DNA of 64,000 nt. It comes from Kineosporia sp. NBRC 101731. GTDB taxonomy: Bacteria; Actinomycetota; Actinomycetes; Actinomycetales; Kineosporiaceae. This document shows, one piece after another, positions 2,591 through 45,930 of the stretch (position 1 is the first letter of the stretch; the number at the start of each line of letters is the position of its first letter). The stretch lies in assembly GCF_030269305.1 (NCBI RefSeq), contig NZ_BSTC01000001.1, forward strand, positions 633,467 to 697,466, in the 5' to 3' direction. A model generated the notes under the pieces. That model did not search any database and was not told where the DNA came from. It was given only the letters and a program-made list of their open reading frames with translations. Made by a program: the position numbers and the translations under genes.

Positions 2591-2699
2591 GTGATCATGC
2601 AAATCCCCCAGCCTTCGGCCGGAAGGTGCCCCACTCCCCGGAGTTCTAGAACTTTCAGATCCACAGTTCTAGAACTCCGGGGAGGTTTTGCATGATCAC
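2591..2699. repeat. Palindromic intergenic element, copy A (bidirectional terminator-like)
   Basis: Outer arms begin GTGATCATGCAAA and end TTTGCATGATCAC. An inner self-complementary AGTTCTAGAACT block occurs twice, with a CCTTCGGCCGGAAGG hairpin in the left half. It lies 8 bp after the epimerase stop codon and 16 bp after the FMN-reductase stop codon, between convergent genes. It is one of at least seven related elements in this window. Confidence 0.85.
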
Positions 2700-2715
2700 G
2701 GCAAGTTGTCGGGGG

Positions 2716-3336
2716 TCAGAGGCCTCGGGCCTTCATCATCTCGCCGAACGGGAGTACCTCAGCGAAAGGATCTTTTACAGAGGGCTTTCCAGCAGTGGAC
2801 GAGGAACTCGTCCTGGTCATCAGTGCCGTGAGCTGGCGGGCCGCCCGCCCGACCCGGCCGGACAGCTCGGTGCTGCCGGCCGACGCCCAGTCCTCGCTCG
2901 CCGCGTACACCGCGGTGGGCACGACGACCGCCTTCAGGTAGCTGAACAGCGGCCGCACAGCGTGTTCCAGGGCCAGTGAGTGGCGGGACGAACCACCGGT
3001 GGCCGCGATCAGCACCGGCTTCCCCTCGAGCGCTCCCAGCTCCAGCACGTCGAAGAAGGACTTGAACAGTCCGCTGTACGACGCGCTGAAGATCGGGGTC
3101 ACCGCGATCAGGGCGTCGGCCTCGGTGACCGCCTTGATCGCGGGAACCAGCTCGCCGGTGGGAAACCCGGTCAGCAGGTTGTTCGTGATGTCGTGCGCCA
3201 GGTCGCGCAGCTCGATCACGGTGAGCTCGACATCTGTCTCGGCCGCGACGGCCGCGCCGAGCTTGTCGGCCAGCAGCCGGGTGGACGACGGCTGGCTCAG
3301 ACCGGCGCTGATCACGACCACCGATGACTTACCCAT
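2716..3336 (-). CDS. NADPH-dependent FMN reductase, CE1759-like (partner of LLM monooxygenase)
   Basis: A flavodoxin-fold reductase of 206 residues. SAGLSQPSSTRLLADKL near the N-terminus is the phosphate-binding loop, and TPIFSASYSGLFKSFFD at residues 99-115 is the flavin loop of the MsuE/SsuE-like group. It starts 5 bp after the LLM-class monooxygenase gene, with a GGGGAG site overlapping the gap, so the two form one operon. The pair matches the CE1758/CE1759 LLM duo: the reductase supplies reduced FMN to the monooxygenase. The substrate is not evident. Confidence 0.85.
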   Translation of the reverse strand: MGKSSVVVISAGLSQPSSTRLLADKLGAAVAAETDVELTVIELRDLAHDITNNLLTGFPTGELVPAIKAVTEADALIAVTPIFSASYSGLFKSFFDVLELGALEGKPVLIAATGGSSRHSLALEHAVRPLFSYLKAVVVPTAVYAASEDWASAGSTELSGRVGRAARQLTALMTRTSSSSTAGKPSVKDPFAEVLPFGEMMKARGL

Positions 3337-3341
3337 GATTG

Positions 3342-4460
3342 TTACTCCCCGACCGACGCGACCGAGGCGAGCGACGCGTCCTCAATTTTGGCCTTCGAAG
3401 CCGCGAGAAGCGAAGCGTGCGTGGGTGCGTCGGGTGTACCCGGCGCCCGGCGCGCGGCGAACTCGGCCCGCAGCGTGGGCAGGATCTCGCCGAGCAGGTC
3501 GAGCTGCTCCAGCACGGTCTTCAGCGGCAGGCCGGCGTGGTCGATCAGGAACGACTGCCGCTGGTAGTCACCCACGTACTCGCGGAAACTCAGGGTGCGG
3601 TCGATGACTTCCTGCGGGCTGCCGACGGTCAGCGGAGTCTGCGAGCTGAAGTCCTCCAGCGAGGGCCCGTGTCCGTAGACCGGCGCGTTGTCGAAGTACG
3701 GCCGGAACTCCTTGACCGCGTCCTGCGACTTCTTGCGCATGAAGAACTGACCGCCCAGGCCGACGATCGCCTGCTCGGGCGTGCCGTGGCCGTAGTGCGC
3801 GAACCGCTGACGGTAGAACTGCACCATCCGCTGGGTGTGCTCCGGCGGCCAGAAGATGTGGTTGTGCAGGAATCCATCACCGTAGTAGGCGGCCTGCTCC
3901 GCGATCTCCGGGCTGCGGATCGAGCCGTGCCAGACGAACGGCGGGATGCCGTCGAGCGGGCGCGGCGTCGAGGTGAAGCCCTTGAGTGGGGTGCGGAACT
4001 TGCCCTCCCAGTCGACGACGTCCTCACGCCACAGGCGGCGCAGCAGCGCGTAGTTCTCCAGTGCCAGGTCGATGCCGTTGCGGATGTCCTGGCCGAACCA
4101 CGGGTACACCGGGCCGGTGTTGCCGCGGCCCATCACCAGGTCGACGCGGCCGTCTGCGAGCTGCTGCAGCATCGCGTAGTCCTCGGCGATCTTCACCGGG
4201 TCGTTCGTGGTGATCAGCGTGGTCGAGGTCGAGAGAATGATCTTCTCGGTGGTCGCCGCGATGAAGCCGAGCATGGTCGTGGGTGACGACGGCACGAACG
4301 GCGGGTTGTGGTGCTCGCCCGTCGCGAAGACATCCAGGCCCACCTCTTCGGCCTTCTGGGCGATACGAACCATCGCCTTGATCCGCTCGCGTTCGCTCGG
4401 CTCGTGACCCGTGGTGGGGTCCGGCGTCACGTCGCCGACCGAGAAAATTCCGAACTGCAT
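3342..4460 (-). CDS. LLM-class flavin-dependent monooxygenase, CE1758-like
   Basis: A luciferase-like TIM-barrel enzyme of 372 residues. It begins MQFGIFSVGDVTPDP and carries VFATGEHHNPPFVPSSP and RGNTGPVYPWFGQD, typical of the CE1758 group. I chose the ATG at 4460, which has a GGGAG site, over an upstream in-frame ATG because the protein family starts there. It is the first gene of a two-gene operon with its FMN reductase. The likely role is FMNH2- and O2-dependent oxidation of a small molecule in the cytoplasm. The divergent upstream gap of about 276 bp should hold its promoter. Confidence 0.88.
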   Translation of the reverse strand: MQFGIFSVGDVTPDPTTGHEPSERERIKAMVRIAQKAEEVGLDVFATGEHHNPPFVPSSPTTMLGFIAATTEKIILSTSTTLITTNDPVKIAEDYAMLQQLADGRVDLVMGRGNTGPVYPWFGQDIRNGIDLALENYALLRRLWREDVVDWEGKFRTPLKGFTSTPRPLDGIPPFVWHGSIRSPEIAEQAAYYGDGFLHNHIFWPPEHTQRMVQFYRQRFAHYGHGTPEQAIVGLGGQFFMRKKSQDAVKEFRPYFDNAPVYGHGPSLEDFSSQTPLTVGSPQEVIDRTLSFREYVGDYQRQSFLIDHAGLPLKTVLEQLDLLGEILPTLRAEFAARRAPGTPDAPTHASLLAASKAKIEDASLASVASVGE

Positions 4461-4736
4461 CACGAACTCCCTGCTCAGGCTGGCTGTCACCGCTATCGGT
4501 GACATCCTCTCCAATAGATCGTTGCCTGAGCAACTACTTGGTGGTCCCCGTCATTCCCGCGACCCGCCCGGCGCAGGGCGGGCGCGTCGCGACGGGTCTG
4601 TGTAGCGTTCCTCGCCGTGCCCGGGGTCGGTCCGCACAACCGGTCCTCCCCCGGCGCACCGGAACGGATGGACATCCAGATGGTGAACAGGAACCGAGTG
4701 CGGAACTCCGATCAAGACACCAGTAGTTATCCAGAT

Positions 4737-5369
4737 ATGAACGAGTCACGTACGGCCAGTCCTTCGCGTGCCTGGACCGTTCGTCGTGCACGCCTCGTCG
4801 ACATCCCCGCGGTGTCCCGCATGCTGCGGGCGCCGTCCCTGGCCGACTGGCCGCTCCCCGGCGGCGTCTCCGACGACGACATCACCTCGGCCACCCGGCT
4901 GATGCTCACCCACGTCGGGCTGGAGCACGGTGAGTTCTGGGTCGCCGATGAGGACGGGCAGGTCAGGGCCGCGGTGGTGCTCCTGCCACCGATGGTGCCC
5001 ACGGGTGCCGGCGACCTTGAGGGCGCCCTGAAACTGGGGCTCGGGCTGGCGCCCGGCCTGCACGACCGAACCGATGTGGCCGAACTCGCCGAACTGGCGG
5101 GCGCCCCGGTGATGCACTGGCTGCTGATGCCGCTGCACGCCCCGGGCGATGACGAGGTGCTCGCCGAGCTGCTCGAGGCCGCACTGCCCGCGGTGGACGT
5201 GACCGGTATGCCGGTCATGTGTCTGGAGCAGGTCGCTCCCGCCGCCCCGATCCGGGAGGCGGGGTTCGCGCCGCTGGTCGTGCCGCTCGACGTCGCGGTC
5301 ACGGCGTCACTGCGCCCGGGCATCCAGGCGCCCGACGACGCGGGATCGTTGTTCGCCGACGTTCGGTAG
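4737..5369 (+). CDS. Uncharacterised protein, possibly GNAT-like acetyltransferase fold
   Basis: About 210 residues if translation starts at MNESRTASPS (ATG 4737); in-frame ATGs at 4668 and 4680 are alternatives. The order WTVRRARLVDIPAVSRML, then FWVADEDGQVRAAVVLLPP, then HWLLMPLHAP and IREAGFAPL resembles the strand-helix order of GNAT proteins. The acetyl-CoA loop (QxxGxG/A) is degenerate, so catalysis is uncertain. A strong hairpin terminator and palindromic repeat copy B follow. No specific function is assigned. Confidence 0.6.
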   Translation: MNESRTASPSRAWTVRRARLVDIPAVSRMLRAPSLADWPLPGGVSDDDITSATRLMLTHVGLEHGEFWVADEDGQVRAAVVLLPPMVPTGAGDLEGALKLGLGLAPGLHDRTDVAELAELAGAPVMHWLLMPLHAPGDDEVLAELLEAALPAVDVTGMPVMCLEQVAPAAPIREAGFAPLVVPLDVAVTASLRPGIQAPDDAGSLFADVR

Positions 5370-5378
5370 TCAGCCGGT

Positions 5379-5423
5379 GCGGTGCCCTCGTCGTCCTCGC
5401 ATGGAGGACGACGAGGGCACCGC
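5379..5423 (+). terminator. Strong hairpin terminator
   Basis: A perfect 20-bp stem starting GCGGTGCCCTC with a GCATG loop begins 9 bp after the stop of the preceding gene. There is no T-tract, which is common in high-GC actinobacteria. Confidence 0.75.
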
Positions 5424-5468
5424 GCGTTGGCGGCGCCGGTTGGGTGGGGTGGCCCACCTCTTTTGTTC

Positions 5469-5578
5469 GTGATCATGCAAATCCCCCAGCCTTCGGCCGG
5501 GAGGTGCCCCCACTCCCCAGTGTTATAGAACTCTTATGTCCACAGTTCTATAACTCCGGGGAGGTTTTGCATGATCAC
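5469..5578. repeat. Palindromic intergenic element, copy B
   Basis: It has the same outer arms as copy A (GTGATCATGCAAA / TTTGCATGATCAC). The inner stem here is GTTATAGAAC paired with GTTCTATAAC, whereas other copies have TTCTAGAA. Both sides changed together, so base pairing is kept. It lies 30 bp from the stop of the SDR gene on the minus strand. Confidence 0.85.
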
Positions 5579-5608
5579 GGAGGCTTGTTGGTTGGTTGGT
5601 TGGTGGGG

Positions 5609-6367
5609 TCAGCGCGGGGGCATGCGGATCGCGCCGTCCATGCGCACGGTCTCACCGTTGATGTAGTCGTGGTCGATGAGCATGAGGGCGAGCTTGGCGT
5701 ACTCGTCGGGGCGGGCCAGGCGCTGGGGGAAGGGGACGGCGGCGGCGAGGCCGGCCAGGTACTCCTGCGTGACCCCGGCCAGCATCGGTGTCTCCACCGT
5801 GCCGGGGGCGATGGTGTTGACCCGGATGCCGTACTGGGCCAGGTCACGGGCCGCCGGCAGGCACAGCCCCACCACGCCACCCTTGGACGACGCGTAGGCC
5901 GCCTGCCCGACCTGCCCCTCGAACGCGGCCACCGACGCGGTGTTGATGATGACGCCCCGCTGCCCGTTCTCGTCCGCCGCGGTCTCGGCGATCCGCTCGG
6001 CGGCATAGGTGAGCACGGTGAACGTGCCGATCAGGTTGATCTGGACGACCTTGGCGTAGAGGGCGATGTCGTGGCGGCCCTTCTTGCCGAGAATTCTTGC
6101 CGCTGTACCGATCCCGGCGCAGTTCACCACGCTGCGCAGAGGAGATCCACCCGAGGACGCCTCGGTCACGGCGGTCTCCACCGAGTCCGGATCGGTCACG
6201 TCCACACCCAGGTAGGTGACGCCGTCGATCGGCTCGGCCTTCTCGATACCGGCGGGCAGGTCGAACCCGTACACCCGGGCCCCACCGGCCGCCAGCGCCG
6301 TCGCCGTGGCCCGGCCCAGGCCGGAGGCCGCGCCGGTGACGATCGCCGCGGTGTTCGAGATCTGCAT
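5609..6367 (-). CDS. Short-chain dehydrogenase, 3-hydroxyacyl-CoA dehydrogenase (HSD10)-like
   Basis: A classical SDR of 252 residues. TGAASGLGRATA at residues 11-22 is the cofactor loop, NCAGIG follows, and YASSKGG supplies the catalytic Tyr and Lys. The FPQRLARPDEYAKLALML tail resembles type-2 3-hydroxyacyl-CoA dehydrogenases. Its ATG overlaps the TGA of the upstream acyl-CoA dehydrogenase gene by one base, so the two are translationally coupled. Together they suggest consecutive beta-oxidation-type steps on an acyl-CoA, possibly from branched-chain amino acid or fatty acid breakdown. Confidence 0.88.
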   Translation of the reverse strand: MQISNTAAIVTGAASGLGRATATALAAGGARVYGFDLPAGIEKAEPIDGVTYLGVDVTDPDSVETAVTEASSGGSPLRSVVNCAGIGTAARILGKKGRHDIALYAKVVQINLIGTFTVLTYAAERIAETAADENGQRGVIINTASVAAFEGQVGQAAYASSKGGVVGLCLPAARDLAQYGIRVNTIAPGTVETPMLAGVTQEYLAGLAAAVPFPQRLARPDEYAKLALMLIDHDYINGETVRMDGAIRMPPR

Positions 6368-7542
6368 CAGGATCCTTCCGCTGTCCGGATAATGCCTTTC
6401 GTGTCCTTGGCGAGGGACCGGCCGATCACCATCCGCTGGATCTGGTTGGTGCCCTCGAAGATCTGCATCACCTTCGCCTCGCGCATGTAGCGCTCCAGCG
6501 GGAAATCGCGGGTGTAGCCGACCCCGCCGAGCACCTGCACGGCGTCGGTGGTCACGCGCATCGCGTTGTCGGTGGCGACCAGTTTGGCGATCGAGGCCTG
6601 GCGGGTGAAGGGCAGGCCGAGGTCGCGCCGGCGGGCCGCGGACAGGTAGGCCGCCCGTGAGACCTCGACGGCCGCAGCCATGTCGGCCAGGAGGAAGCTC
6701 AGACCCTGGTGGTCGATGATGGCTCGCCCGAAGCTCTCACGCTCTCGCGCGTAGGCCACGGCGGCGTCGAGTGCGGCCTGGGCCAGGCCGGTGGCGACGG
6801 CCGCGATGCCGAGACGGCCCGAGTCCAGGCCTTTCAGGGCGATTTTCAGGCCCTCGCCCTCGGGCCCGATGCGGTTTTCGACCGCTACCCGAACGTCGGT
6901 GAGCCGGATCGCGGTGGTGTGCGAGGCGGTGAGGCCCATCTTGCGCTCAGGCGGATCTGCGGCCAGGCCGGGTGTTTGCGCGGGCACGAGGAAGCACGAG
7001 ATGCCGTCGCGACCGTCGCCGGTGCGGGCCATGACCTTGTAGAAGTCGGCCTGCCCGCCGTGGGTGGTCCAGGCCTTGACCCCATTGAGCACGTACTCGT
7101 CGTTCTTCAGCACGGCCCGGGTGCGCATCGCGGCCGGGTCGGAACCGGCGTGGGGCTCGGAAAGGCAGTAGGCACCGAGCTGTTCGCCGCCGAGCAGGCC
7201 GGGTAGCCAGCGTTCGCGTTGCTCCGGGCTACCGAACTCGGCCGGGCCGAAGCAGGACAGGGCGTGCACGCTGACGCCGACCCCGACGCTGGCCCAGACC
7301 GTTGCGATCTCTTCCAGCACCTGGAGGTAGACCTCGTAGGGCTGGTCGCCGCCGCCGTACTCGCCCGGATAGGGCAGGCTCAGCAGTCCGGCCCGCCCGA
7401 GCAGGCGAAAGGTGTCGCGGGGGAAGATCTCGTCGGCCTCGTGCCGGTTGACCTGGGGTGCGAGCTCACGGTGCGCGAGTTGCCGGGTCAGCGCGATGAG
7501 GTCGGCCGCCTCGGCGGTCGGCATGACACGGTCGGCGGGCAA
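6367..7542 (-). CDS. Acyl-CoA dehydrogenase
   Basis: A 391-residue flavoenzyme with complete acyl-CoA dehydrogenase architecture. CLSEPHAGSDPAAMRT is the FAD/substrate loop, AWTTHGGQADFY follows, and the C-terminal signature runs VLGGVGYTRDFPLERYMR to IFEGTNQIQR. The Glu of FEGT is the usual catalytic base position. It removes the alpha and beta hydrogens of an acyl-CoA and passes electrons to ETF. It is the first gene of an operon with the HSD10-like dehydrogenase. Starts at 7542 or 7524 are both possible. Confidence 0.92.
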   Translation of the reverse strand: MPADRVMPTAEAADLIALTRQLAHRELAPQVNRHEADEIFPRDTFRLLGRAGLLSLPYPGEYGGGDQPYEVYLQVLEEIATVWASVGVGVSVHALSCFGPAEFGSPEQRERWLPGLLGGEQLGAYCLSEPHAGSDPAAMRTRAVLKNDEYVLNGVKAWTTHGGQADFYKVMARTGDGRDGISCFLVPAQTPGLAADPPERKMGLTASHTTAIRLTDVRVAVENRIGPEGEGLKIALKGLDSGRLGIAAVATGLAQAALDAAVAYARERESFGRAIIDHQGLSFLLADMAAAVEVSRAAYLSAARRRDLGLPFTRQASIAKLVATDNAMRVTTDAVQVLGGVGYTRDFPLERYMREAKVMQIFEGTNQIQRMVIGRSLAKDTKGIIRTAEGS

Positions 7543-7548
7543 GCGTCC

Positions 7549-7593
7549 CTCCTCACTGAGCGGCGGAGTTCAGTATGCCGCTTCAGTGAGGAG
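7549..7593. promoter_or_regulatory. Inverted repeat upstream of the acyl-CoA dehydrogenase operon
   Basis: Arms CTCCTCACTGAGCGGC (7549-7564) and GCCGCTTCAGTGAGGAG (7577-7593) are complementary apart from one bulged base. The element ends 7 bp before the dehydrogenase start and 33 bp after the DUF1272 stop. It is either an operator for the operon or the terminator of the upstream gene. Confidence 0.5.
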
Positions 7594-7626
7594 TTTGTTA
7601 CTGCCTGAGCATGGCGAGATCGCGCG

Positions 7627-7872
7627 TCAGCCGACCTTCTGGAGCTCCGCGTTGTGGACCCGCTGGGTCGACGCCGGGAACTCGGCCAGCTTCGCCGGGG
7701 ACCGCAGCGGACGGGAGACCAGGTTTCCCGTGTCGTTCGGGCACGCATTGTCAGCAAAGGAGGCTGCGCAGTCGGTGCACCAGGTGCACTCGAACGAGCA
7801 GATCCAGACATCGGGGGAATCCGCCGGGAGGTCCACGTCACAGGATTCGCAGTTGGGTCTGAGCTCAAGCAT
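7627..7872 (-). CDS. DUF1272 small zinc-ribbon protein
   Basis: An 81-residue cysteine-rich protein beginning MLELRPNCESCDVDLP. CESC, the CSFECTWCTDC cluster and NACPND give a multi-Cys metal-binding pattern. Length and start match the DUF1272 family, which has no settled function. It is transcribed alone, between the acyl-CoA dehydrogenase operon and a DJ-1/PfpI gene. One late Cys of the second metal pair looks replaced (ACPND in place of CPNC), so only one site may bind metal tightly. Confidence 0.85.
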   Translation of the reverse strand: MLELRPNCESCDVDLPADSPDVWICSFECTWCTDCAASFADNACPNDTGNLVSRPLRSPAKLAEFPASTQRVHNAELQKVG

Positions 7873-8098
7873 GATCGGACGCTAACACGCTCCGATACAG
7901 CGATTTTCGGCCGCGACGACCCTCTCTTTACGTAGTCTCATGATCACTGGGCCGTTCTGCGCGAAACGGGTCAGAACGATGCGGTGAGGCCACGCATCGT
8001 GCAGGCGGTGCGGCGGACCGTCGCAGCCGGAACGGAAAGATTTCTGAAGTTACTGAAAGTAGTTTCGGCTTCAGAGGGTGAGCAGATTCCGATATGTC

Positions 8099-8140
8099 GT
8101 GATCATGCAGAACCTCCCCGGGGAGGTTCTGCATGATCAC
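8099..8140. repeat. Palindromic intergenic element, copy C (perfect 21-bp stem)
   Basis: The shortest family member: two exact 21-nt arms beginning GTGATCATGCAGAACC with no loop insert. It lies 14 bp after the stop of the DJ-1/PfpI gene. The stem has GCAGAACC/GGTTCTGC where other copies have GCAAAACC/GGTTTTGC, a paired change that keeps the stem. Confidence 0.9.
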
Positions 8141-8154
8141 GACCACGAGGGGGA

Positions 8155-8700
8155 TCAGAAGGCCGAGGCCAGGGCCTTCGCGAAGGCCGGGAGGTCGTCC
8201 GGCCGGCGGCTGGTGATCAGGGGCCCGGGGCCTTTGAGGTCCACCACGACCTCCTGATCGACCCACTCCGCACCGGCGTTGCGCAGGTCGGTCTTCAGGC
8301 TCGGCCACGACGTGAGCGTGCGACCGCTCACCGCCCCGGTCTCCACGAGCGTCCACGGGGCGTGGCAGATGGCAGCGACCGGCTTGCCGGTGTCGAGGAA
8401 CGACTTCACGAAGGCCACGGCCTCCGGGACGGTCCGGAGGGCATCGGGGTTCGCTACGCCGCCGGGCAGGACCAGGCCGTCGTAGTCTTCCGCGTCGGCC
8501 TCGCTGACCGGGAGGTCGACGTCGAAGACGTCGCCCTTGTCGAGGTGGTTGAAGCCCTGAACGGTCTTGCTGTCACTTCCGACGATGAGGACGGGATGTC
8601 CGCCCGCCTTCTTCACCGCCTCCCAGGGGTCGGTCAGCTCGACCTGCTCCACCCCTTCGTCCGCAACCAGGAAGGCGATCTTCTTTCCGCTGAGGGGCAC
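8155..8700 (-). CDS. DJ-1/PfpI-family type 1 glutamine amidotransferase-like protein
   Basis: A protein of 181 residues from the GTG at 8700 (VPLSGKKIAFLVADEGVEQ), where the family normally begins; an open frame continues to 8817 but would overlap the divergent gene's promoter. Residues AICHAPW place the nucleophilic Cys in the elbow, followed by His and with an upstream Glu in DEGVEQVEL. Family members act as deglycases, chaperones or proteases of the stress response; no substrate is claimed. It is divergent from an FAD reductase. Copy C of the palindromic repeat follows it. Confidence 0.88.
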   Translation of the reverse strand: MPLSGKKIAFLVADEGVEQVELTDPWEAVKKAGGHPVLIVGSDSKTVQGFNHLDKGDVFDVDLPVSEADAEDYDGLVLPGGVANPDALRTVPEAVAFVKSFLDTGKPVAAICHAPWTLVETGAVSGRTLTSWPSLKTDLRNAGAEWVDQEVVVDLKGPGPLITSRRPDDLPAFAKALASAF

Positions 8701-8817
8701 GGTGAAACTCCTGACGCCGATCGGTACAACCGTGGCCCGCGGATGTCGGGCCACACCGCCAGAGCCTGGTCCGGGAGCGAGGGTTGCGCAGGCCGAGATG
8801 CGCGCGAGGATGGCCAC

Positions 8818-9981: not shown

Positions 9982-10000
9982 CCCCGTCGCTCTTCTGCCC

Positions 10001-10046
10001 GTGATCGGGCAAAGCTTCCCGGGGAGATGGGGGATTGCATGATCAC
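10001..10046. repeat. Palindromic intergenic element, copy D (partly decayed)
   Basis: It starts GTGATCGGGCAAA and ends GCATGATCAC, with CCCCGGGGA in the centre. The arms are less complementary than in the other copies. It lies 19 bp after the FAD reductase stop codon, between convergent genes. Confidence 0.7.
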
Positions 10047-10091
10047 GACAAGAGGATGGTCGGCCTCCGTCATCGCCGCGCCGGCGGAACG

Positions 10092-10127
10092 GGACAAGCC
10101 CCGGCGGTGGTCCGCCGGGGCCTGTCC
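10092..10127 (-). terminator. Hairpin terminator
   Basis: GGACAAGCCCCGGCGG pairs with CCGCCGGGGCCTGTCC with one mismatch around a TGGT loop, 19 bp beyond the fprA stop codon. Confidence 0.7.
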
Positions 10128-10146
10128 TGGTTGGTTCCTGGGGTGA

Positions 10147-11511: not shown

Positions 11512-11513
11512 GG

Positions 11514-11532
11514 TTAGGTCAGCCTAACCTTG
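11514..11532 (-). promoter_or_regulatory. IdeR/DmdR-like iron box
   Basis: TTAGGTCAGCCTAACCTTG matches the 19-bp actinobacterial iron box (TTAGGTTAGSCTAACCTAA) at 16 of 19 positions and is dyad symmetric. It lies immediately upstream of the fprA ATG, where a bound repressor would block transcription. Confidence 0.8.
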
Positions 11533-13987: not shown

Positions 13988-14004
13988 GGCGCTCGCCGGC
14001 GCCC
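13987..14004 (+). terminator. Short GC hairpin after the racemase-like gene
   Basis: GGGCGC and GCGCCC pair around a 6-nt loop, starting at the last base of the stop codon. The stem is short; repeat copy E 24 bp further on may be the main terminator. Confidence 0.35.
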
Positions 14005-16582: not shown

Positions 16583-16585
16583 CCC

Positions 16586-29830: not shown

Positions 29831-29934
29831 GTGATCATGCAAATCCCCCAGTCTTCGGCCGGGAGGTGCCCCCCGGAGTTCTAGAACTCTCTCGGCCACA
29901 GTTCTAGAACGCTGGGGAGGTTTTGCATGATCAC
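29831..29934. repeat. Palindromic intergenic element, copy F
   Basis: It has the same outer arms (GTGATCATGCAAA / TTTGCATGATCAC), paired AGTTCTAGAAC blocks and a TCTTCGGCCGGGAGG segment as copy A. It lies 16 bp after the stop of the aldehyde dehydrogenase gene and 65 bp upstream of gudD copy 1. Confidence 0.9.
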
Positions 29935-36082: not shown

Positions 36083-36083
36083 G

Positions 36084-38053: not shown

Positions 38054-38101
38054 GAAGGGTGGACGACGACACTGGCGGTCTCGTTGTCGTCCACCCTTCT
38101 C
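38052..38101. terminator. Strong hairpin terminator after the importer operon
   Basis: GAGAAGGGTGGACGAC and GTCGTCCACCCTTCTC form a perfect 16-bp stem that begins inside the stop codon of the last ATPase gene. It lies between convergent operons. Confidence 0.9.
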
Positions 38102-38174
38102 AAGAGGCCTCGCTCCTGAGGCCTGGGTCCTCGACGATCAGGACACCACGGGCACGTCGCCGGTGCGGCAAGCG

Positions 38175-39128: not shown

Positions 39129-40387
39129 CAGAGAGGTGCCTTCCACTGCGGGTTCACGCTGCGCATGTAGCCGGTGTCGTCGCGGTTGCGGATGCCGGAG
39201 TCCAGGTACTGCTGATGCATGCGGGCCAGTGCGTCACGGTCGAGTTCGATGCCCAGACCGGGTGTCGTCGGTACTTTCACCGCGCCGTCCGCGAAGCCCA
39301 GCACACCGGGGACGATCACGTCGTCCTCGGGGCGCTTCCACGGCCAGTGGGTGTCGCAGGTGTAGTCGAGATTCGGTGTGGCGGAGGCCAGATGCACCAT
39401 CGCGGCCAGGCTGATGCCCAGGTGCGAGTTCGAGTGCATCGACAGACCGAGGTCGAAAGTGTCGCAGATGGCGGCGAGCGACTGCGACCGCCGCAGCCCG
39501 CCCCAGAAGTGGTGGTCCGAGAGCACCACACCCACGGCACCCTGCTGCACAGCCGGTTGCAGGTGGCCGAACGCCACCACGCACATGTTCGTGGCCAAGG
39601 GCATCGGCACCTCGCGGGCCACTTCGGCCATCCCGGGGATGCCCGCGGTCGGGTCTTCGAGGTACTCCAGAACACCCTCGAGGTCCTGCCCGACCTTGAT
39701 CGAGGTGGGAACGGTCCAGACGGCATTCGGGTCCAGGCGCAGCGGAATGTCGGGAAAGGCCTTCCGCAGCTCCCTGATCGCGGCCACCTCCTGGTCCGGG
39801 GGGAACACCCCGCCCTTCAGCTTGATCGATGAGAAGCCGTACTCGTCGATCATTTTCCGGGCCTGCCGCACCAACCCGTCGGGGTCGAGTGCGGCTCCCC
39901 ACGCGTCGTCGTCCTGGCCCGGGTGTCCGGCCCACTTGTAGAACAGATAACCCGTGAAACTCACCCGGTCGCGAACCGCGCCGCCGAGCAGATCGCTCAC
40001 CGGGCGTCCCGTCATTTTGCCCTGAAGATCGAGTGCCGCGACCTCGAACGGCGACAGTACCCGGTCACTGGTGGACGACGTGGTCACCATGCCGGCCATG
40101 CCGTGCCCGCCGACCTGACGGTCGTCGGCCAGGGAAACGATCACGCGGCGCTGTATTTCGTGAAGGTCGAAGATGTCGGTGCCGACCAGCGCGGCGGCGG
40201 CCTTTTCGATGCGCCGCAGATGGGGCTCGTCACCGTAGGTCTCACCGAGCCCGTACTGCCCTCCCGCCGTGACCACCTCGACGATCGTGCGCAGGGCGAA
40301 CGGCTCGTGCACGCCAACGCTGTTGAGCAGCGGAAGGTCCCGGAAGGCCACCGGCGTCACACGGACGGCACAGATCAGCTCGGACAT
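39125..40387 (-). CDS. Glucarate dehydratase-family enolase-superfamily enzyme (copy 2)
   Basis: A 420-residue paralogue of copy 1, much diverged. The same catalytic layout is present: SIKLKGG (KxK), LRLDPNAVW, LEDPTAGIPG, LATNM and MHSNSHLGIS. The N-terminal cap has NSVGVHEPFALRTIVEV instead of the copy-1 [13 protein letters not shown], which suggests a different substrate. An IclR-type operator lies 42 bp upstream. It is followed by an overlapping 2-hydroxyacid dehydrogenase gene. Confidence 0.88.
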   Translation of the reverse strand: MSELICAVRVTPVAFRDLPLLNSVGVHEPFALRTIVEVVTAGGQYGLGETYGDEPHLRRIEKAAAALVGTDIFDLHEIQRRVIVSLADDRQVGGHGMAGMVTTSSTSDRVLSPFEVAALDLQGKMTGRPVSDLLGGAVRDRVSFTGYLFYKWAGHPGQDDDAWGAALDPDGLVRQARKMIDEYGFSSIKLKGGVFPPDQEVAAIRELRKAFPDIPLRLDPNAVWTVPTSIKVGQDLEGVLEYLEDPTAGIPGMAEVAREVPMPLATNMCVVAFGHLQPAVQQGAVGVVLSDHHFWGGLRRSQSLAAICDTFDLGLSMHSNSHLGISLAAMVHLASATPNLDYTCDTHWPWKRPEDDVIVPGVLGFADGAVKVPTTPGLGIELDRDALARMHQQYLDSGIRNRDDTGYMRSVNPQWKAPLW

Positions 40388-40428
40388 GGCAACCCTTCAT
40401 CGGGAGACGTCCCGAGCATCCTGGCACG

Positions 40429-40444
40429 GTTCACATGCGTGGAC
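40429..40444. promoter_or_regulatory. IclR-type operator, site 2 (gudD copy 2)
   Basis: GTTCACATGCGTGGAC matches sites 1 and 3 at 14-15 of 16 positions. It lies 42 bp upstream of gudD copy 2 and 23 bp from the end of the small cyclotransferase-like gene. Confidence 0.8.
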
Positions 40445-40466
40445 AAGGGTCACGCTGGTAGACGGT

Positions 40467-40871
40467 TCAGGGTCGGCCGAAGGGCAGGTTCTGGCTCTTC
40501 AGGTAAGCGCGCCAGCCGCCGGCGTCGCTGATGTCCACCACACCCGGCGCATCCAGGGCGGTTTCGCGCATCCGCATGGACAGCGAGCCGGTTCCGTCGG
40601 CCAGTTCGATGATGCCGAGCTCCAGCTCTTCCGGTTCCCGCGGCAGGAGGTCCCGGGCGAGCATCAGATAGGGCAGCTCGTAGAGCTCGCCGGGAACCGC
40701 CCGGCCACCCTCGGCGACCGGGTGCAGCCCGGGAAACACGTCACGGACCGAGAAGAACCGGTACTGCGGGGCGGTGTCGACCTCGCCCAGGAAGGTGGCG
40801 CCGGCAAAGGCGTCGTTGAACTCCCCGCCCTGCATGCCCTGCCCGTTCACGAACATTCTGACCAGGTTCAT
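40467..40871 (-). CDS. Allophanate hydrolase-related/gamma-glutamylcyclotransferase-fold protein
   Basis: A protein of 134 residues from MNLVRMFVNGQGMQGGEFNDAF. FVNGQGMQGGEFN and RFFSVRDVFPGLHPVAEGGRAVPGELYEL match the small proteins related to the C-terminal domain of allophanate hydrolase. This fold is seen as a free protein beside sugar-acid and aromatic catabolic genes. The reaction is unknown. It is located between gudD copy 2 and iclR, on the same strand, and might be co-transcribed with iclR but for a hairpin between them. Confidence 0.78.
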   Translation of the reverse strand: MNLVRMFVNGQGMQGGEFNDAFAGATFLGEVDTAPQYRFFSVRDVFPGLHPVAEGGRAVPGELYELPYLMLARDLLPREPEELELGIIELADGTGSLSMRMRETALDAPGVVDISDAGGWRAYLKSQNLPFGRP

Positions 40872-40880
40872 CGTTATCCC

Positions 40881-40906
40881 TACGCTCGGCTGAAAAGCCG
40901 AGCGTA
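40881..40906 (-). terminator. Hairpin terminator after iclR
   Basis: TACGCTCGGCT pairs perfectly with AGCCGAGCGTA around a GAAA tetraloop. It is 5 bp beyond the iclR stop and just before the next gene's start. Confidence 0.8.
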
Positions 40907-40911
40907 GAGGT

Positions 40912-41742
40912 TCACACCCAGGCGTTGTTGACAGAGACCGGGGTGATGACGCGGCTGATCCGGTCACCGGCGTTGCGCAGGGCCTGGATCACCTCGGCCT
41001 CGCGCTGCGGGTTCAGCCGGGCGATCGGGACGGAGGCGCTGATGGCGTCCACCGCGGGTTCGGCATAGCGCAGGGGCACGGCGAAACACTTGAGCCCGAG
41101 GCTGTTCTCCTGGTTGTCCACGGCATAGCCGCGCTGCCTGGTCTCCTCGAGGTCTTTCTCCAGCGCCGAACGGTCGGTGATGGTGTGCGCCGTCAGGGCT
41201 TCCAGTGAGGCCGGAAGGTGCTCGTCCAGCTCGGAACCGGTGCGGGCACTCAGCAGCGACTTGCCCAGCGACGTGCTGTAGGCCGGGAGACGTCGTCCGA
41301 CCCGGCTGTAGGGGCGCAGGTACTGACTGGATTCGCGGGTGGCCAGGTAGACCACGTCCGGCCCGTCCAGGCGCCCGAAATGAAAGGTCTCGTCGAGCTG
41401 TTCGCGCAGTTCGTCGAGCACCGGAAGCACCAGCGGCAGATAGGGATCGGTGTCGAGGTAACTGGTACCGGCCAGCAGCGCCCGGATGCCGATGCCGTAC
41501 AGCGTCCCGGTCGGGTCCGCGCGGACCCACCCGTGCTTGGCCAGGGTTCGCAGCAGCGCGTGCAAACTGCTGCGCGGCACTCCGAGCGCCTCGCTGAGTT
41601 CCCGCAGCCGGGCGGGGCGATTCTGCCGCGCGGCCAGGTGCTCGAGCAGTTCGACGGTGCGCGCGGCCGACTTGACCTCGCGAACACCAGCGGGCTCGGA
41701 CATCTCTTCAGGGCTTCCCGAGCTCGACAACGCTGTGGACAC
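40912..41742 (-). CDS. IclR-family transcriptional regulator of the sugar-acid locus
   Basis: A protein of 276 residues from the GTG at 41742, chosen because GAGAGGAG lies 5 bp upstream and the longer frame would run into the operator. The winged HTH has ARLRELSEALGVPRSSLHALLRTLAKHGW at about 45-75. The effector domain has DETFHFGRLDGPDVVYLA and AYSTSLGKSLLSARTG. Its own promoter carries the 16-bp motif found before the importer operon and gudD copy 2. Repression relieved by a sugar acid or its keto product is likely. Confidence 0.9.
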   Translation of the reverse strand: MSTALSSSGSPEEMSEPAGVREVKSAARTVELLEHLAARQNRPARLRELSEALGVPRSSLHALLRTLAKHGWVRADPTGTLYGIGIRALLAGTSYLDTDPYLPLVLPVLDELREQLDETFHFGRLDGPDVVYLATRESSQYLRPYSRVGRRLPAYSTSLGKSLLSARTGSELDEHLPASLEALTAHTITDRSALEKDLEETRQRGYAVDNQENSLGLKCFAVPLRYAEPAVDAISASVPIARLNPQREAEVIQALRNAGDRISRVITPVSVNNAWV

Positions 41743-41784
41743 GGGCGCTCCTCTCGGTGAGAGGCGAAACGATAACAGAGCGCT

Positions 41785-41800
41785 GTCCACATACGTGGAC
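41785..41800. promoter_or_regulatory. IclR-type operator, site 3 (iclR promoter)
   Basis: GTCCACATACGTGGAC has perfect 6-bp arms and lies 43 bp upstream of the iclR GTG, consistent with autoregulation. Confidence 0.8.
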
Positions 41801-41823
41801 GCAGATCCATGAGGCTGATGCGG

Positions 41824-42336
41824 TCAGAGTTCCGTGTAGTAGACCCAGATCCCGAGGTCCTGGGTGTGGTCGCCCTCATGAACGAATCCGGCTTCCGCGA
41901 AGAGGCGCTTACTGGCCGCGTTGCGGTGGTCGATGTGCGCCCGGACGAGCAGATGCTGGGCGTCACCCGTCCGGACTTCATCGATGATCACCTGCATGGC
42001 GACCTCGATGGCCTCTTTCGCCCAGCTGCGTCCGCGGCCTCGATACCGGGTTGCTATGCCGATCAGCTGGATCAGAGCCCGGCCTCGGTCGGTGTCGCGG
42101 GCCCAGGCAACAGCTGCTGCGATGCCTTGTCCGTCGAGGCCGAGCAGCATGTGCTCACCGCGAGCCGGACGAGGCTTGTGACTGCGAATCGCCGATTGGA
42201 CCGAGTGCTCCCACGGGCGCGGGTGCGTTTTTCGCTGCCCGTCCCAGGTCTTGCTCTCAGGGTCCGTACAGACGAAGCAAGCCAGGGCGGGACGATCGGA
42301 CTTCTCGAAAGGCCGCCAATGCAGCAGATCGGTCAC
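41824..42336 (-). CDS. GNAT-family N-acetyltransferase
   Basis: A 170-residue protein. GIATRYRGRGRSWAKEAIEVAM resembles the acetyl-CoA loop (RGRG with Ser instead of the second Gly region), and VRAHIDHRNAASKRLFAEAGF is the N-x-x-S-x-x-LF block. The base composition is lower in GC than the surroundings. Its start overlaps the stop of a 72-residue gene (ATGA), so the two are coupled. A GNAT with a small upstream partner recalls acetyltransferase toxin-antitoxin pairs, but I see no clear RHH antitoxin. The function is open. Confidence 0.78.
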   Translation of the reverse strand: MTDLLHWRPFEKSDRPALACFVCTDPESKTWDGQRKTHPRPWEHSVQSAIRSHKPRPARGEHMLLGLDGQGIAAAVAWARDTDRGRALIQLIGIATRYRGRGRSWAKEAIEVAMQVIIDEVRTGDAQHLLVRAHIDHRNAASKRLFAEAGFVHEGDHTQDLGIWVYYTEL

Positions 42337-42551
42337 GCCTCAGTGTTGCGCGACTCCTTGTTGGCGCGTGCCTTCATACGGGCCTCGAGAGCATCCCACT
42401 CGGTGCTCGAAGGCATGCGACCAGCGGTACTCATGTAGGCCCGGGCCATGCGTCTGCGTTCGCGGCGGGTCAGGCCGTCATCGCCCGTCGGGCCGCTGAA
42501 CAGGGCCAAGCGGGGAAACCGAAGGAAGCGCAAGGGATGTGTGCTGGCCAT
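42333..42551 (-). CDS. Small basic protein coupled to the GNAT gene
   Basis: A 72-residue protein starting MASTHPLRFLRFPRLALF and rich in Arg and Met (LTRRERRRMARAYMSTAGR). I do not recognise the family. It overlaps the GNAT start by four bases, and a 6-2-6 palindrome lies 27 bp upstream. Arg-rich helices could bind nucleic acid. It could be an antitoxin-like or regulatory partner; that is speculation. Confidence 0.6.
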   Translation of the reverse strand: MASTHPLRFLRFPRLALFSGPTGDDGLTRRERRRMARAYMSTAGRMPSSTEWDALEARMKARANKESRNTEA

Positions 42552-42577
42552 ATCGGTTAAAGCCTCCCCTCTCTCGT

Positions 42578-42591
42578 CTAACTACAGTTAG
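42578..42591. promoter_or_regulatory. Palindrome upstream of the small-protein/GNAT pair
   Basis: CTAACTACAGTTAG is a perfect 6-2-6 inverted repeat, AT-rich relative to the region, in the expected promoter position 27 bp before the small gene's ATG. Confidence 0.55.
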
Positions 42592-42678
42592 AAAGGTAGC
42601 CGCATCTATCCGTGACCGTCCAATGATCCGGGGTGCAGTACCGGGGCCGGGCGGCCCTTCTGATGCACCTAGGCAAAG

Positions 42679-42712
42679 GAAACTCCCCCGGCTCGGTCAG
42701 CGGGGGGAGTTC
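42679..42712 (-). terminator. Hairpin terminator after terC
   Basis: GAAACTCCCCC pairs with GGGGGAGTT around GGCTCGGTCAGC, just beyond the terC stop codon. Confidence 0.65.
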
Positions 42713-42723
42713 CGGCGTGGAGG

Positions 42724-43764
42724 TCAGGCGGCCCGGGTGGGCTCGTCCTTCATGTCGAACTGGTTCTCCGCGAGGGCGGCGTTACGGGCGTCGCGGCGGT
42801 TGGCCATCGTGCTGGTGACCGTGACGATCGCCAGCACGGCGACAATGAAGCCCAGCGACATCCAGGTCGGCACCACCGGTACCGCGTGGATCGGCTCGCC
42901 GCCGTTCAGGAACGGCAGGTTGTTGTCGTGGAACGCCTCCATCACGAGCTTCACGCCGATGAACGCCAGGATGATCGAGAGCCCCGTGTCCAGGTGCCGC
43001 AGGCGGTCGAGCAGGTCGCGCACCACGAAGAAGAGCTGGCGCAGGCCCATCAGGGCGAAGGCGTTGGCGGTGACGACGAGGAAGGGTTCCTTCGTCAGGC
43101 CGAAGATGGCCGGGATCGAGTCGAGGGCGAAGAGCACGTCGGTGACACCGATGGCGACCATCGTGACGAGCATCGGCGTGGCGATCCAGCGGTGGCTCTG
43201 CTTCACGAACGGGCGTCCGCCGTGCCAGACCGGTGTGCTGGGGATGACCCGGCCGATGAAACCGACCACCGCGGGCGGGGCTTCTTCCTCCACGTCGGAG
43301 TCCTCGCCCCCGTGACCGGAACGCAGCAGGTTCCAGGCGGTGTAGAGCAGGAATGCGGCGAAGATGAAGAAGACCCAGGAGAACTGGTGGATGGCGGCGG
43401 CGCCGACGGCGATCAGGCCGGCCCGCAGGACCAGGGCGATCAGGATGCCGATGGTCAGTACCCGCAGCTGCAGGTATTCGGGCACCGAGAACCTGGTCAT
43501 GAGGACCAGGAAGACGAAGAGATTGTCAGCGCTCAGGCTGTACTCGGTGAGCCAGCCGGCGATGAACTGCCCGCCGTAGCCGGGGCCGAACCCGACGATG
43601 ATCGCGCCGCCGAACCCGAGGGCTACGACGACGTAGAACAGCACCCACCGAACGGCGTGCTGAATGGTGATGTGCGTCTGACCCCGGTTGAGAAAGAGGT
43701 CGATGGCCGTGATCCCGAGGACCAGGGCGATGGTGGCGATCCACCAAGCAGCGCTGACGTGCAT
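42724..43764 (-). CDS. TerC/Alx-family membrane protein (manganese exporter type)
   Basis: A protein of 346 residues from the ATG at 43764. Eight or nine helices; SLSADNLFVFLVLMTRF and VTDVLFALDSIPAIFGLT are the paired acidic TerC signatures (SxDN and ALDSxPA). Such proteins export Mn2+ or help metallate secreted enzymes. A yybP-ykoY-type riboswitch precedes the gene and its hairpin sequesters the GGAGG site, so Mn2+ should raise expression. Longer upstream frames run through the riboswitch and were not used. Confidence 0.92.
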   Translation of the reverse strand: MHVSAAWWIATIALVLGITAIDLFLNRGQTHITIQHAVRWVLFYVVVALGFGGAIIVGFGPGYGGQFIAGWLTEYSLSADNLFVFLVLMTRFSVPEYLQLRVLTIGILIALVLRAGLIAVGAAAIHQFSWVFFIFAAFLLYTAWNLLRSGHGGEDSDVEEEAPPAVVGFIGRVIPSTPVWHGGRPFVKQSHRWIATPMLVTMVAIGVTDVLFALDSIPAIFGLTKEPFLVVTANAFALMGLRQLFFVVRDLLDRLRHLDTGLSIILAFIGVKLVMEAFHDNNLPFLNGGEPIHAVPVVPTWMSLGFIVAVLAIVTVTSTMANRRDARNAALAENQFDMKDEPTRAA

Positions 43765-43771
43765 TAAAAGG

Positions 43772-43960
43772 CCTCCGGTCTCTTCCCATGCGAAAGAACC
43801 GGAGGTCTCCTCCGCCCGGCAGATCGTGAGTGCACACAGGGGTGTGCGTGATCTGGTAATCCGAGCCGATGACGCCGGGCATGATCGGTCTTCGCTGACC
43901 GACCTGGTATCGAGATGCCGTGCTGACGACGTCACCGTTCTAGGGAGTACTCCCCTCCAC
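43772..43960 (-). promoter_or_regulatory. yybP-ykoY-type manganese riboswitch upstream of terC
   Basis: Read on the minus strand, the leader has AGGGGAGTACTCCC, then GGTGACGTCGTCAGCACGGC, then GCCCGGCGTCATCGGCTC, and finally GCCGGGCGGAGGAGACCTCC, the conserved pieces I know from actinobacterial TerC leaders. Downstream, CCTCCGGT (43798-43805) can pair with ACCGGAGG (43772-43779), hiding the Shine-Dalgarno 7 nt before the ATG. The same CCTCC can instead pair with the aptamer's GGAGG. This mutually exclusive folding fits a translational switch. Confidence 0.8.
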
Positions 43961-44093
43961 TGGTGCTCAGTGTGCTCTGCCCTACGGGCCGAGTCCACTT
44001 ACGGTGAACTACGACACATGCAGTGAGGGAACCTTTACAATTCGCTGACTTCCATGCGTCATTTCTCCCCGTTTGAAGGGTTTTGTGACTGAA

Positions 44094-44126
44094 CCGGCAT
44101 GAGCACGAGATCCGTGCTCATGCCGG
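44094..44126 (-). terminator. Hairpin terminator
   Basis: CCGGCATGAGCAC pairs with GTGCTCATGCCGG around 7 nt, 11 bp beyond the stop of the PfaD-like gene. Confidence 0.8.
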
Positions 44127-44136
44127 GTTCGATCGA

Positions 44137-45651
44137 TCAACGGGCGGCGAGCGCCAGTTCTTCCGCCCGGGCAGCCGGAACCGGTGCCGGGGACTCGCCG
44201 AGCAGATACCCCAGAGCCTGCTGGGCGTCCCAGCCGTCCGGGTGGAGGGCCAGCAGCTGCTTGGCGGCGGTGAGGTCGGAGCCGAGGGTGAGCAGCGGGC
44301 CCTCCTCGACGCCGGAGCGCACCTGGGGCATGCCCACGGTGGCCATCAGGCCGTTGCACAGGCACTTACGGCCGACGGTGTTGCTCAGGTCGCCGCCCTT
44401 GCGCAGGTAGTCGTCCTCGGGCTCGGACGGGCAGCGGTAGCCCAGCTGGCCGGGCTTCTTCTCGTAGGCCGTACGCAGGTAGGCCAGGTCGCAGATGCGG
44501 GTGCGCTCGGCGTAGGCCTCTTCGGTACCCAGTGTGCCGGCCATCGGCACGACCTTGAACGGGAAGCCGGTCGGGGAGGCCAGGGCGTCGGTGCGGACCT
44601 CGAGGCGGTCGCCGGCCAGGGCATCGAGCAGCTGGCCGCGGATCTGCGAGGTCGTGCCGGAGTCGCTGCTCAGTGCGAAGATCGTGCCGACCTGGACACC
44701 GACGGCGCCGAGGGCCCTGGCCTCCTGCACCAGCTCAGGGGTGGCGTAGGCGCCGGCCAGCCAGAACGGCAGACCGAACTTGGCGATCTTGGCCACGTCG
44801 GCCTCGTCGCGGGCACCGTAGACCGGCTCGCCGTTCTCGATCGTCATGCGGCCACGCGGCGGGGCGTTGTGCCCACCGGCGATGTGCCCCTCGACGACGA
44901 AACCGTCGGGGGTGGTGGCCTCTTCCTTGGTCAGGTAGGCCGCCAGCGGGTGCGAGGCGATGATGGCGAGGAACTTGGGACGCTTCAGAGGGGGGAAGTC
45001 CTCGGGAACCACGTCGCGGGGGTTGAGTTCGGTGGCGTAGGTCTGGGTTCCGCCGTCGACGTGGATCTCCATCGCCGCAAGCTCGTGGCGGGCCAATTTG
45101 TCGAGCAGGCGCGGGATCTTCGAGGGGATACCCGCACCGACGAGCACGTAGTCGACGCCGGCCAGCATCGCGCCGTAGGCGGCGGGAACGATCGCCAGCT
45201 GGATCTTCTCCAGCAGGTTGATGCCGACGGGGCCGCAGTGGCCCTCCTTGGCCAGCCAGACCTCGACGAAGGCGCTGGCCACCATCAGGTCGCGGCTGCG
45301 GCTGACCGGCTTCAGGGTCAGGTTGGGGACCGGCAGGTAGGCCTGGCCCTCCTCGCGGCCCTCGGGCCGGAAGTAACGCTCCAGGATGCGGTCGGCCACG
45401 GCCGGCACCGGGAAGTGGGCCAGCGCGCGGCGCATGTGGCCGCCCGGGTCGCCGTCCTGAAGACGGCGGGCCACCACGGTGTCGAGCGCGGTGCCGGACA
45501 CCACGCCCAGGTTGCCGGTCTGGGCGACCTGGTTGGCCAGGTTCCAGTCGGAGACCGCGGCCCCCATTCCACCCTGGATGACGACGGGCAGAGCCGGCTC
45601 ACTGCCGGGCTGCGCCCGGTCGAGACCGGGCGCTGACTCTTCGTTCCTCAC
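44137..45651 (-). CDS. PfaD-like/nitronate monooxygenase-family FMN enzyme
   Basis: A 504-residue barrel enzyme. VVIQGGMGAAVSDWNLANQVA is the FMN-phosphate N-terminal signature, GHIAGGHNAPPRG and GAVGVQVGTIFALSSDSG the later flavin loops, and NTVGRKCLCNGLMATVGMPQ the C-terminal Cys-rich segment seen in PfaD-type proteins. PfaD is the trans enoyl reductase of polyunsaturated fatty acid and some polyketide synthases, but no synthase genes lie nearby. The role of this free-standing version is unknown. Strong palindromic sites lie at its promoter. Confidence 0.82.
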   Translation of the reverse strand: MRNEESAPGLDRAQPGSEPALPVVIQGGMGAAVSDWNLANQVAQTGNLGVVSGTALDTVVARRLQDGDPGGHMRRALAHFPVPAVADRILERYFRPEGREEGQAYLPVPNLTLKPVSRSRDLMVASAFVEVWLAKEGHCGPVGINLLEKIQLAIVPAAYGAMLAGVDYVLVGAGIPSKIPRLLDKLARHELAAMEIHVDGGTQTYATELNPRDVVPEDFPPLKRPKFLAIIASHPLAAYLTKEEATTPDGFVVEGHIAGGHNAPPRGRMTIENGEPVYGARDEADVAKIAKFGLPFWLAGAYATPELVQEARALGAVGVQVGTIFALSSDSGTTSQIRGQLLDALAGDRLEVRTDALASPTGFPFKVVPMAGTLGTEEAYAERTRICDLAYLRTAYEKKPGQLGYRCPSEPEDDYLRKGGDLSNTVGRKCLCNGLMATVGMPQVRSGVEEGPLLTLGSDLTAAKQLLALHPDGWDAQQALGYLLGESPAPVPAARAEELALAAR

Positions 45652-45680
45652 AGCAGCAGGCCTTCCCGTCGAAGATGATC

Positions 45681-45724
45681 AACTTACGATTTCGTAAGTT
45701 ACGCCTACGGAAACGTAAGTTACG
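45681..45724. promoter_or_regulatory. Tandem operators upstream of the PfaD-like gene
   Basis: AACTTACG-ATTT-CGTAAGTT (45681-45700) is a perfect 8-bp inverted repeat. A second related site overlaps: CGTAAGTTACG recurs at 45694-45704 and 45714-45724. The pattern looks like a TetR-type operator 30-73 bp upstream of the start, but no regulator gene is adjacent. Confidence 0.7.
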
Positions 45725-45849
45725 CCCTCGAAGGTTCCCGACGCCAGACGCCGTGCAGGTAAAAAACCTGAGGTCACGGCCGGGGCGCGCTCAACGGCCC
45801 AGGTCAGGGCGATGCGCGGAGCGGGGCCCCGGTGCCTAAGATTTTGTTG

Positions 45850-45930
45850 GTGATCATGCAAAACCTCCCCGGCGTTCTAGAACTGTGATGGCCAGAGTTC
45901 TAGAACCTCGGGGAGGTTTTGCATGATCAC
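45850..45930. repeat. Palindromic intergenic element, copy G
   Basis: GTGATCATGCAAAACCTCCCC is exactly complementary to the right arm ending TTGCATGATCAC. The inner GTTCTAGAAC block occurs on both sides of the centre. It is 12 bp after the stop of the LuxR-type regulator. This is the best-preserved long form. Confidence 0.92.

Follow-up and report, generated by a model that had tools for sequence, protein, structure and literature searches.

The best-described repetitive extragenic palindromes (REPs) are tied to the TnpA-REP (RAYT) family of HUH enzymes, and the mechanism of their spread is still an open question (PMC8266576). In that account, RAYT REPtrons consist of short palindromes found in many intergenic copies and arranged as inverted pairs with a variable linker, while the RAYT gene is mostly single-copy and lies beside its cognate repeats; its presence often correlates with repeat abundance, and repeat and protein co-evolve. 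The present analysis concerns a family of palindromic elements, seven of which lie in a 64,000-nt stretch of Kineosporia sp. NBRC 101731 (contig NZ_BSTC01000001.1, positions 633,467 to 697,466; the whole stretch is referred to as the window), together with a gene for a putative AbiEi/Vsr-like nuclease in the same genome. The palindromes are probably the dispersed half of a two-component, REP-like actinobacterial system of which the nuclease gene is the other half; this partner lies outside the window and is not visible from it. As in REP/RAYT systems, the Kineosporia family comprises hundreds of arms (384), inverted pairs with a variable loop and a cognate gene bracketed by repeats. Unlike those systems, it has a predicted enzyme of AbiEi plus PD-(D/E)XK (Vsr-like) type rather than an HUH Y1 transposase, its outer end is GTGATCATGCA rather than the GTAG tag that RAYT systems most often carry, and its copies, which are actinobacterial, stand at stop codons. 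Because the anatomy matches except for the enzyme and the tag, the family is treated here as a functional counterpart, and not a member, of the REPtrons. A RAYT-type TnpA, for which the sequence-only reading had proposed a search, was not found: the HUH Y1_Tnp domain (PF01797) was detected at E<=1e-5 in none of 10 genomes and in 5 of 14 control genomes, and a RAYT-type transposase was rejected as the partner.

AbiEi proteins are autoregulators that bind inverted repeats in the promoters of their own genes (PMC7319586), and this makes it plausible that the N-terminus of the partner protein recognizes the repeat. Like the AbiEi type IV antitoxins, including Rv2827c, the partner is predicted to combine an N-terminal DNA-binding fold with a C-terminal domain fold; unlike them, it has a fused nuclease domain and hundreds of repeats, and no toxin partner (DUF1814) was found among five neighbours at three loci (cobalamin adenosyltransferase, methylmalonyl-CoA mutase, Rieske oxygenase, ClpX and a GGDEF/EAL protein). 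Its C-terminal domain resembles Vsr and I-Bth0305I in predicted fold, at weak Foldseek E-values, and has near-invariant acidic positions; we know of no coupling of Vsr or I-Bth0305I to dispersed palindromes. The elements share with intrinsic bidirectional terminators a hairpin just past stop codons, a G-poor left flank and a C-poor right flank, and differ from them in being a near-identical repeated sequence linked to its own gene, with weak T-tracts. No published description of the pairing of gene and palindrome was found in the open full-text literature, a negative whose strength is limited accordingly, preprints lying outside that literature, and a word search of PMC3733652 gave no match to actinobacterial or GATC terms. 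Among papers matching the arm sequence, the only title with a possible bearing is that of a study of Streptomyces coelicolor ArgR (PMC5839063). The tie between the family and a nuclease-like gene of its own points to a hitherto undescribed REP counterpart.

The window's own genome (8,264,356 bp in 88 contigs) contains the exact 11-mer outer arm GTGATCATGCA 384 times (188 + 196), and the reversed control 0 + 0 times. Pairing was read in 513,633 bp, made up of the window and 34 stretches picked around listed arms, where there are 54 elements of 38-110 bp, each made by a pair of arms, and 18 exact arms without a partner; as these stretches, like those of a further genome (G249), were picked in this way, densities in them cannot be taken as representative, and copies that lack exact arms are counted too low. 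Size classes among the 54 pairs include 42 bp (7), 81-82 bp (17) and 104-110 bp (11). In the 81-82-bp copies the outer arms are 0.968 alike and the 13-nt loops 0.50 alike. The order of the arms is reversed, TGCATGATCAC preceding GTGATCATGCA by 14-25 bp, at positions 356060-356095, 616775-616820 and 834050-834096 of contig C1; these are two elements or half-elements standing back to back.

The elements sit mostly at gene ends. With genes called by a rough, home-made codon-score caller, which also served for the Aeromicrobium counts given below, 51 of the 54 pairs could be classified, as 21 convergent, 16 and 8 tandem, 5 divergent and 1 within a called open reading frame (ORF). At least one stop codon precedes 45 of the 51, and 50 of 66 stop-to-element distances are 8-41 bp. 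Convergent gaps make up 21 of the 51 copies, versus 51 of all 285 gaps of at least 20 bp in the same stretches. One of the divergent calls, at window position 8099, probably reflects a mistake of the caller, which missed a minus-strand ORF (8155..8817) that adjoins that copy and ends at 8155. Outside the arms, G falls to 8% on the left and C to 8% on the right over positions 5-14 (10 bp). Runs of at least three T within 18 nt downstream occur on the right side in 16 of 54 elements and the corresponding A runs on the left in 15 of 54, compared with 4 and 3 of 54 further out and 9 and 8 on the wrong side; T-tracts beside the elements are weak. A further role of the palindromes as bidirectional terminators is probable. 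That they inserted into terminator hairpins specific to each locus was considered and is not claimed, because the flanks are barely more complementary than flanks paired anew (z 1.5 and 2.5).

The candidate partner came into view in two relatives (G016 and G034) in which tandem arrays of the arm point inward from both sides at a gene of about 305 aa. Its closest homologue in the window's genome (47% identity, E 8.7e-71), the sole close one, lies about 0.85 Mb from the window, where perfect inverted arms of 70 bp enclose it within a single copy of the palindrome; the element sits between convergent cobalamin adenosyltransferase and methylmalonyl-CoA mutase genes, and the only ORF of at least 150 aa wholly between its arms is this gene. 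The only other match in that genome at E<=0.01, a distant homologue (E 2e-4) at C6:318201-318731, has no bracketing repeats.

The protein, of about 310 aa, is predicted to begin with an AbiEi-type winged helix and C-terminal domain and to end in a Vsr-like PD-(D/E)XK nuclease part. Among nine members searched against Pfam at E<=1, the restriction-nuclease family MTES_1575 was matched by 9, AbiEi_1 by 7 and AbiEi_4 by 5, and the Kineosporia protein passes the curated cutoff of AbiEi_4 (31.8 versus 25). PADLOC likewise scores the N-terminus as AbiEi (best 9e-19). Of five AlphaFold2 models, two reached a predicted local distance difference test score (pLDDT) of 80 and three 61-66; structure comparison of a model at pLDDT 80 gave 6y8q, an AbiEi antitoxin (E 3e-7), together with Rv2827c (E 9e-5), and showed a resemblance of its C-terminus to the homing endonuclease I-Bth0305I (probability 0.91, E 0.18) and Escherichia coli Vsr (probability 0.80, E 0.21). 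Acidic residues are near-invariant in 64 bracketed homologues (E210 64/64, D243 64/64, E254 63/64, D256 61/64) and are assumed to be catalytic residues of the PD-(D/E)XK type. Three members tested against NCBIfam gave no match, and a sequence search of solved structures gave no notable relative (three matches, E 0.14-0.43).

Bracketing of this gene by inverted repeats recurs far beyond Kineosporia. A scan of named genomes, in which the best 80 of 90 relatives were kept as loci, placed homologues in Kineosporia mesophila, Georgenia, Quadrisphaera, Nocardioides, Aeromicrobium, Kribbella, Mumia, Williamsia and others, genera that we take to be all actinobacterial. Together with loci from the other searches, the homologue loci number 141; 136 of them offered sufficient flank, and dropping identical proteins left 121, six pairs at >=90% identity being still among them. 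With bracketing defined as inverted repeats on both flanks scoring >=16, 74 of the 121 non-redundant loci are bracketed, compared with 0 of 111 when flanks 1 kb further out were used and 1 of 680 shuffled flanks (from the 136 loci); by distance class, closest first, the counts are 12/13, 26/32, 19/29 and 17/47. Two loci (L109 and L110) were scored as misses because their genes are split, and both proved bracketed on separate reading. In G094 (contigs C104 and C143) and G146 (C1:317273-318180) the homologue is broken into two overlapping frames around profile positions 129-149, which reflects either frameshift decay or a programmed frameshift. The sequences of the repeats differ between lineages, the cases read being tandem arrays with units of about 22-38 bp, and paralogues within one genome carry different repeats (G019, G027). 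Repeat similarity grows with protein similarity (Mantel r 0.24, p 0.0005, 73 loci).

The abundance of the repeat also tracks the gene across the order. In a survey of 248 genomes in which counts of GTGATCATGSA were set against the E-value of the best homologue, all 11 genomes with a homologue at E<=1e-100 carry 27-414 copies, compared with 8 of the other 237 genomes with at least 25 (Fisher p 1.7e-14). Two unrelated repeats, each tested in six genomes, were found only in the genome of their own gene: that of Nocardioides limicola is present 56 times in its own genome and that of Aeromicrobium sp. Leaf350 55 times in its own, and each is absent from five others. In Aeromicrobium, 24 repeat clusters were read, and 17 of them are palindromes whose lengths of 93-137 bp rise by about 22 at a time; all 17 face at least one stop codon, which is 3-10 bp away in 13; 12 of the 17 lie between convergent genes. 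Placement at gene ends thus recurs with an unrelated sequence.

Comparison within the genus suggests what is being copied. K. mesophila JCM 16902 holds a copy at five of the seven window sites and none at 10001 and 14028. At 2591, 5469 and 29831 the copy at the matching place has a short arm, at 29831 with 12 of 13 loop bases identical; 8099 also has a copy there, with a variant bearing the arm GTGATCATGCG in G003, and the copy at 45850 is diverged. In other genomes the alignable sites with a copy number 1/7 (G003), 0/7 (G004), 0/5 (G001) and 0/2 (G005), G003 holding a further 34-bp palindrome of similar type at L163. Arm versions differ at orthologous sites: at three shared sites a long left arm in the window stands opposite a short arm in K. 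mesophila. The long arm occurs 26 times in the window's genome (19 exact), 13 times in K. mesophila (6 exact) and not at all in six others, and is never on both sides of the paired copies read; around the nuclease gene it is on both sides here, and short arms take its place in K. mesophila. The nuclease gene occupies the same locus in both species, with the segment of about 1.1 kb between the arms inverted. The inverted cassette spans L202:11691-12784 in one and L205:9979-11071 in the other, the flanks being collinear. At six shared sites the loops match at 12, 11, 11, 11, 9 and 6 of 13 bases, so that a loop tends to remain with its site, whereas the arms are held similar across the genome; the copied unit therefore looks like the arm rather than the whole palindrome.

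These observations can be read as a non-HUH counterpart of REP/RAYT in which the nuclease maintains and spreads the palindromes. In such a system, the AbiEi part would bind the repeat unit (here GTGATCATGCA...), and the nuclease would nick or cut the palindrome, perhaps as a hairpin extruded during replication; repair from another copy would then transfer arms between sites, which would keep the arms alike and could seed new copies. Copies would persist just past stop codons because the hairpin is harmless there, or useful as a bidirectional terminator. Cut-and-copy repair of this kind would yield the observed pattern of arms and loops, as would gene conversion without a nuclease. The three options left open by the sequence-only reading are each partly borne out. 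That of a REP-like mobile palindrome agrees with the 384 arms, inverted pairs, variable loop and single cognate gene; that of a terminator agrees with strong hairpins and the stop distances; and that of a protein-binding site agrees with a family tied to the gene of a protein with a predicted DNA-binding fold. A wider proposal is advanced tentatively, and with less conviction than the two-component system itself: that there is a new class, spread across the Actinobacteria, in which an AbiEi-Vsr-like nuclease disperses genome-specific palindromes by cut-and-copy without transposase chemistry, the palindromes being installed as bidirectional terminators of convergent genes. A second, unrelated enzyme with REP anatomy would represent convergent evolution of REP systems, and the many natural pairs of enzyme and repeat would make the question of REP spread testable. 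It would also suggest a role for a group of actinobacterial AbiEi-plus-nuclease proteins and would account for the origin of many of the hairpins at gene ends in these genomes.

Several points weigh against a two-component system. Binding, cutting and movement were not observed here. The cutoff of 1e-100 in the order survey was set after the table had been seen; moved to 1e-50, it gives 14/23 versus 5/225 (p 3e-13), and nine genomes with a homologue between 1e-50 and 1e-100 hold just 1-8 copies. Two genomes that just miss 1e-100 have 2 arms (G140, E 1e-97) and 1 arm (G224, E 4e-98), one G140 locus (L222) being bracketed by another repeat and the G224 locus (L221) by none. Conversely, G007 has 159 arms without a homologue at E<=1e-30; the six pairs read there (L208, L209) are 40-bp palindromes with a variable centre, and the genome possibly holds a relic, or its gene is unassembled. 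Four more genomes carry arms without a homologue at that level, namely G075 (38), G003 (28), G005 (26) and G172 (25). The copies in G075 (23 + 15), of which the 16 listed places are all on the same strand and three are spaced at 54 bp, probably belong to another repeat. At the threshold used, 47 of 121 loci are unbracketed, 30 of these falling among the 47 most distant, and the Mantel trend may in part reflect common descent of the loci. As for the protein, the match of the Kineosporia member to MTES_1575 (29.6 bits) lies below the curated 38.2, and the Foldseek E-values of the nuclease part, at 0.18-0.21, are weak, so that the Vsr label depends on the Foldseek probability and on Pfam MTES_1575; the acidic positions are, moreover, equally conserved in 35 unbracketed homologues. 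Homogenization of the arms could be ordinary gene conversion. No clean empty site was found, and no target-site duplication was seen at three sites where one Kineosporia genome departs from the other and the boundaries are not clean; at copy-less sites most of the spacer between stop codon and element differs in sequence.

Other explanations deserve comparison with a nuclease that spreads its palindromes. The protein might be a self-regulating DNA-binding nuclease or an orphan defence factor, with the flanking repeats as its operators and the dispersed palindromes as decoys or binding sites that owe their spread to ordinary recombination, the nuclease not moving them. The autoregulation of AbiEi proteins and their binding to inverted repeats at their own promoters (PMC7319586) are in keeping with this, as are the PADLOC call and the repeats on both sides of the gene; operators, however, should lie on the promoter side alone, whereas the repeats bracket the gene in inverted orientation, with tandem arrays in several loci, both genomes examined have their dispersed copies at 3' ends of genes other than this one, and five neighbours at three loci include no toxin partner, so that this account appears unlikely. 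It is distinctly improbable that a homing-endonuclease-like gene merely parasitizes an independent palindrome family, only the gene depending on the nuclease. The location of the Kineosporia gene within one palindrome, the resemblance of the nuclease domain to I-Bth0305I, the cassette flipped between two species at one locus and the G007 palindromes without a close homologue would all fit; yet hundreds of sites with a single gene copy are the reverse of what homing saturation would give, repeat abundance tracks the gene across the order, and several other lineages flank the gene with tandem unit arrays and not with one split palindrome.

There is only a slender chance that the elements are lineage-specific bidirectional terminators under transcription selection alone, beside one of which the nuclease gene landed by accident. 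Strong hairpins, the stop distances, the convergent share and the weak T-tracts downstream speak for termination, but this account leaves unexplained why 74 of 121 genes are bracketed as against none of the 111 controls, why repeats are genome-specific, and why same-genus genomes without the gene have no copies at most aligned sites. Last, the family might consist of miniature inverted-repeat transposable elements (MITEs) of a classical DDE insertion sequence, or of REPs of an HUH RAYT, given that its copies are numerous, short and non-coding and end in inverted repeats. Against this stand the absence of Y1_Tnp from all 10 genomes, where the controls worked, the lack of visible target duplications, and the AbiEi/nuclease gene as the sole ORF of at least 150 aa wholly between the arms of the gene-bearing copy; this origin is rated very improbable, on evidence that includes no search for DDE transposases. 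The two-component system remains the favoured reading, and what is plainly observed for it is the association of repeat and gene.

The seven elements of the window are listed below.

Palindromic elements in the window (positions in the window; fold z, RNA folding against shuffles)
Element	Position	Arms and structure	Setting	Fold z
109-bp palindromic element	2591..2699	left arm long, right arm short	between convergent genes	-10.4
110-bp palindromic element	5469..5578	left arm long, right arm short	between convergent genes	-7.7
42-bp perfect palindrome	8099..8140	no inner stem		-8.7
46-bp degenerate copy	10001..10046		between convergent genes	-3.0
94-bp degenerate copy	14028..14121	fold at shuffle level		-0.8
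104-bp palindromic element	29831..29934	left arm long, right arm short		-6.5
81-bp palindromic element	45850..45930	short arm on each side		-13.8

All seven were located where the sequence-only reading had placed them, and its description of them holds with some exceptions. The outer arms that it took to be common to all are exact on both sides in five copies and degenerate in two, the 10001 copy having GTGATCGGGCA as its left arm and the 14028 copy the arms GTGATCATGTG and TGCCTGATCAC. The term palindromic is fully valid for five of the seven only, these being exceptional hairpins (z -6.5 to -13.8), because the fold of the 10001 copy is weak and that of the 14028 copy equals shuffles. Each copy has a stop codon 8-40 bp away (7/7, if the minus-strand ORF next to the 8099 copy is taken as its neighbour), and three of the seven lie between convergent genes, both as described. 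The inner stem TTCTAGAA is exact in three copies and present in the 5469 copy as a variant only. Arm-like sites with up to two mismatches number 36 in the window, versus a shuffle mean of 12.95 (sd 3.53, largest 20). At the Rfam gathering threshold the only known RNA families matched in the window are three tRNAs, whose genes stand consecutively at 61258-61550.

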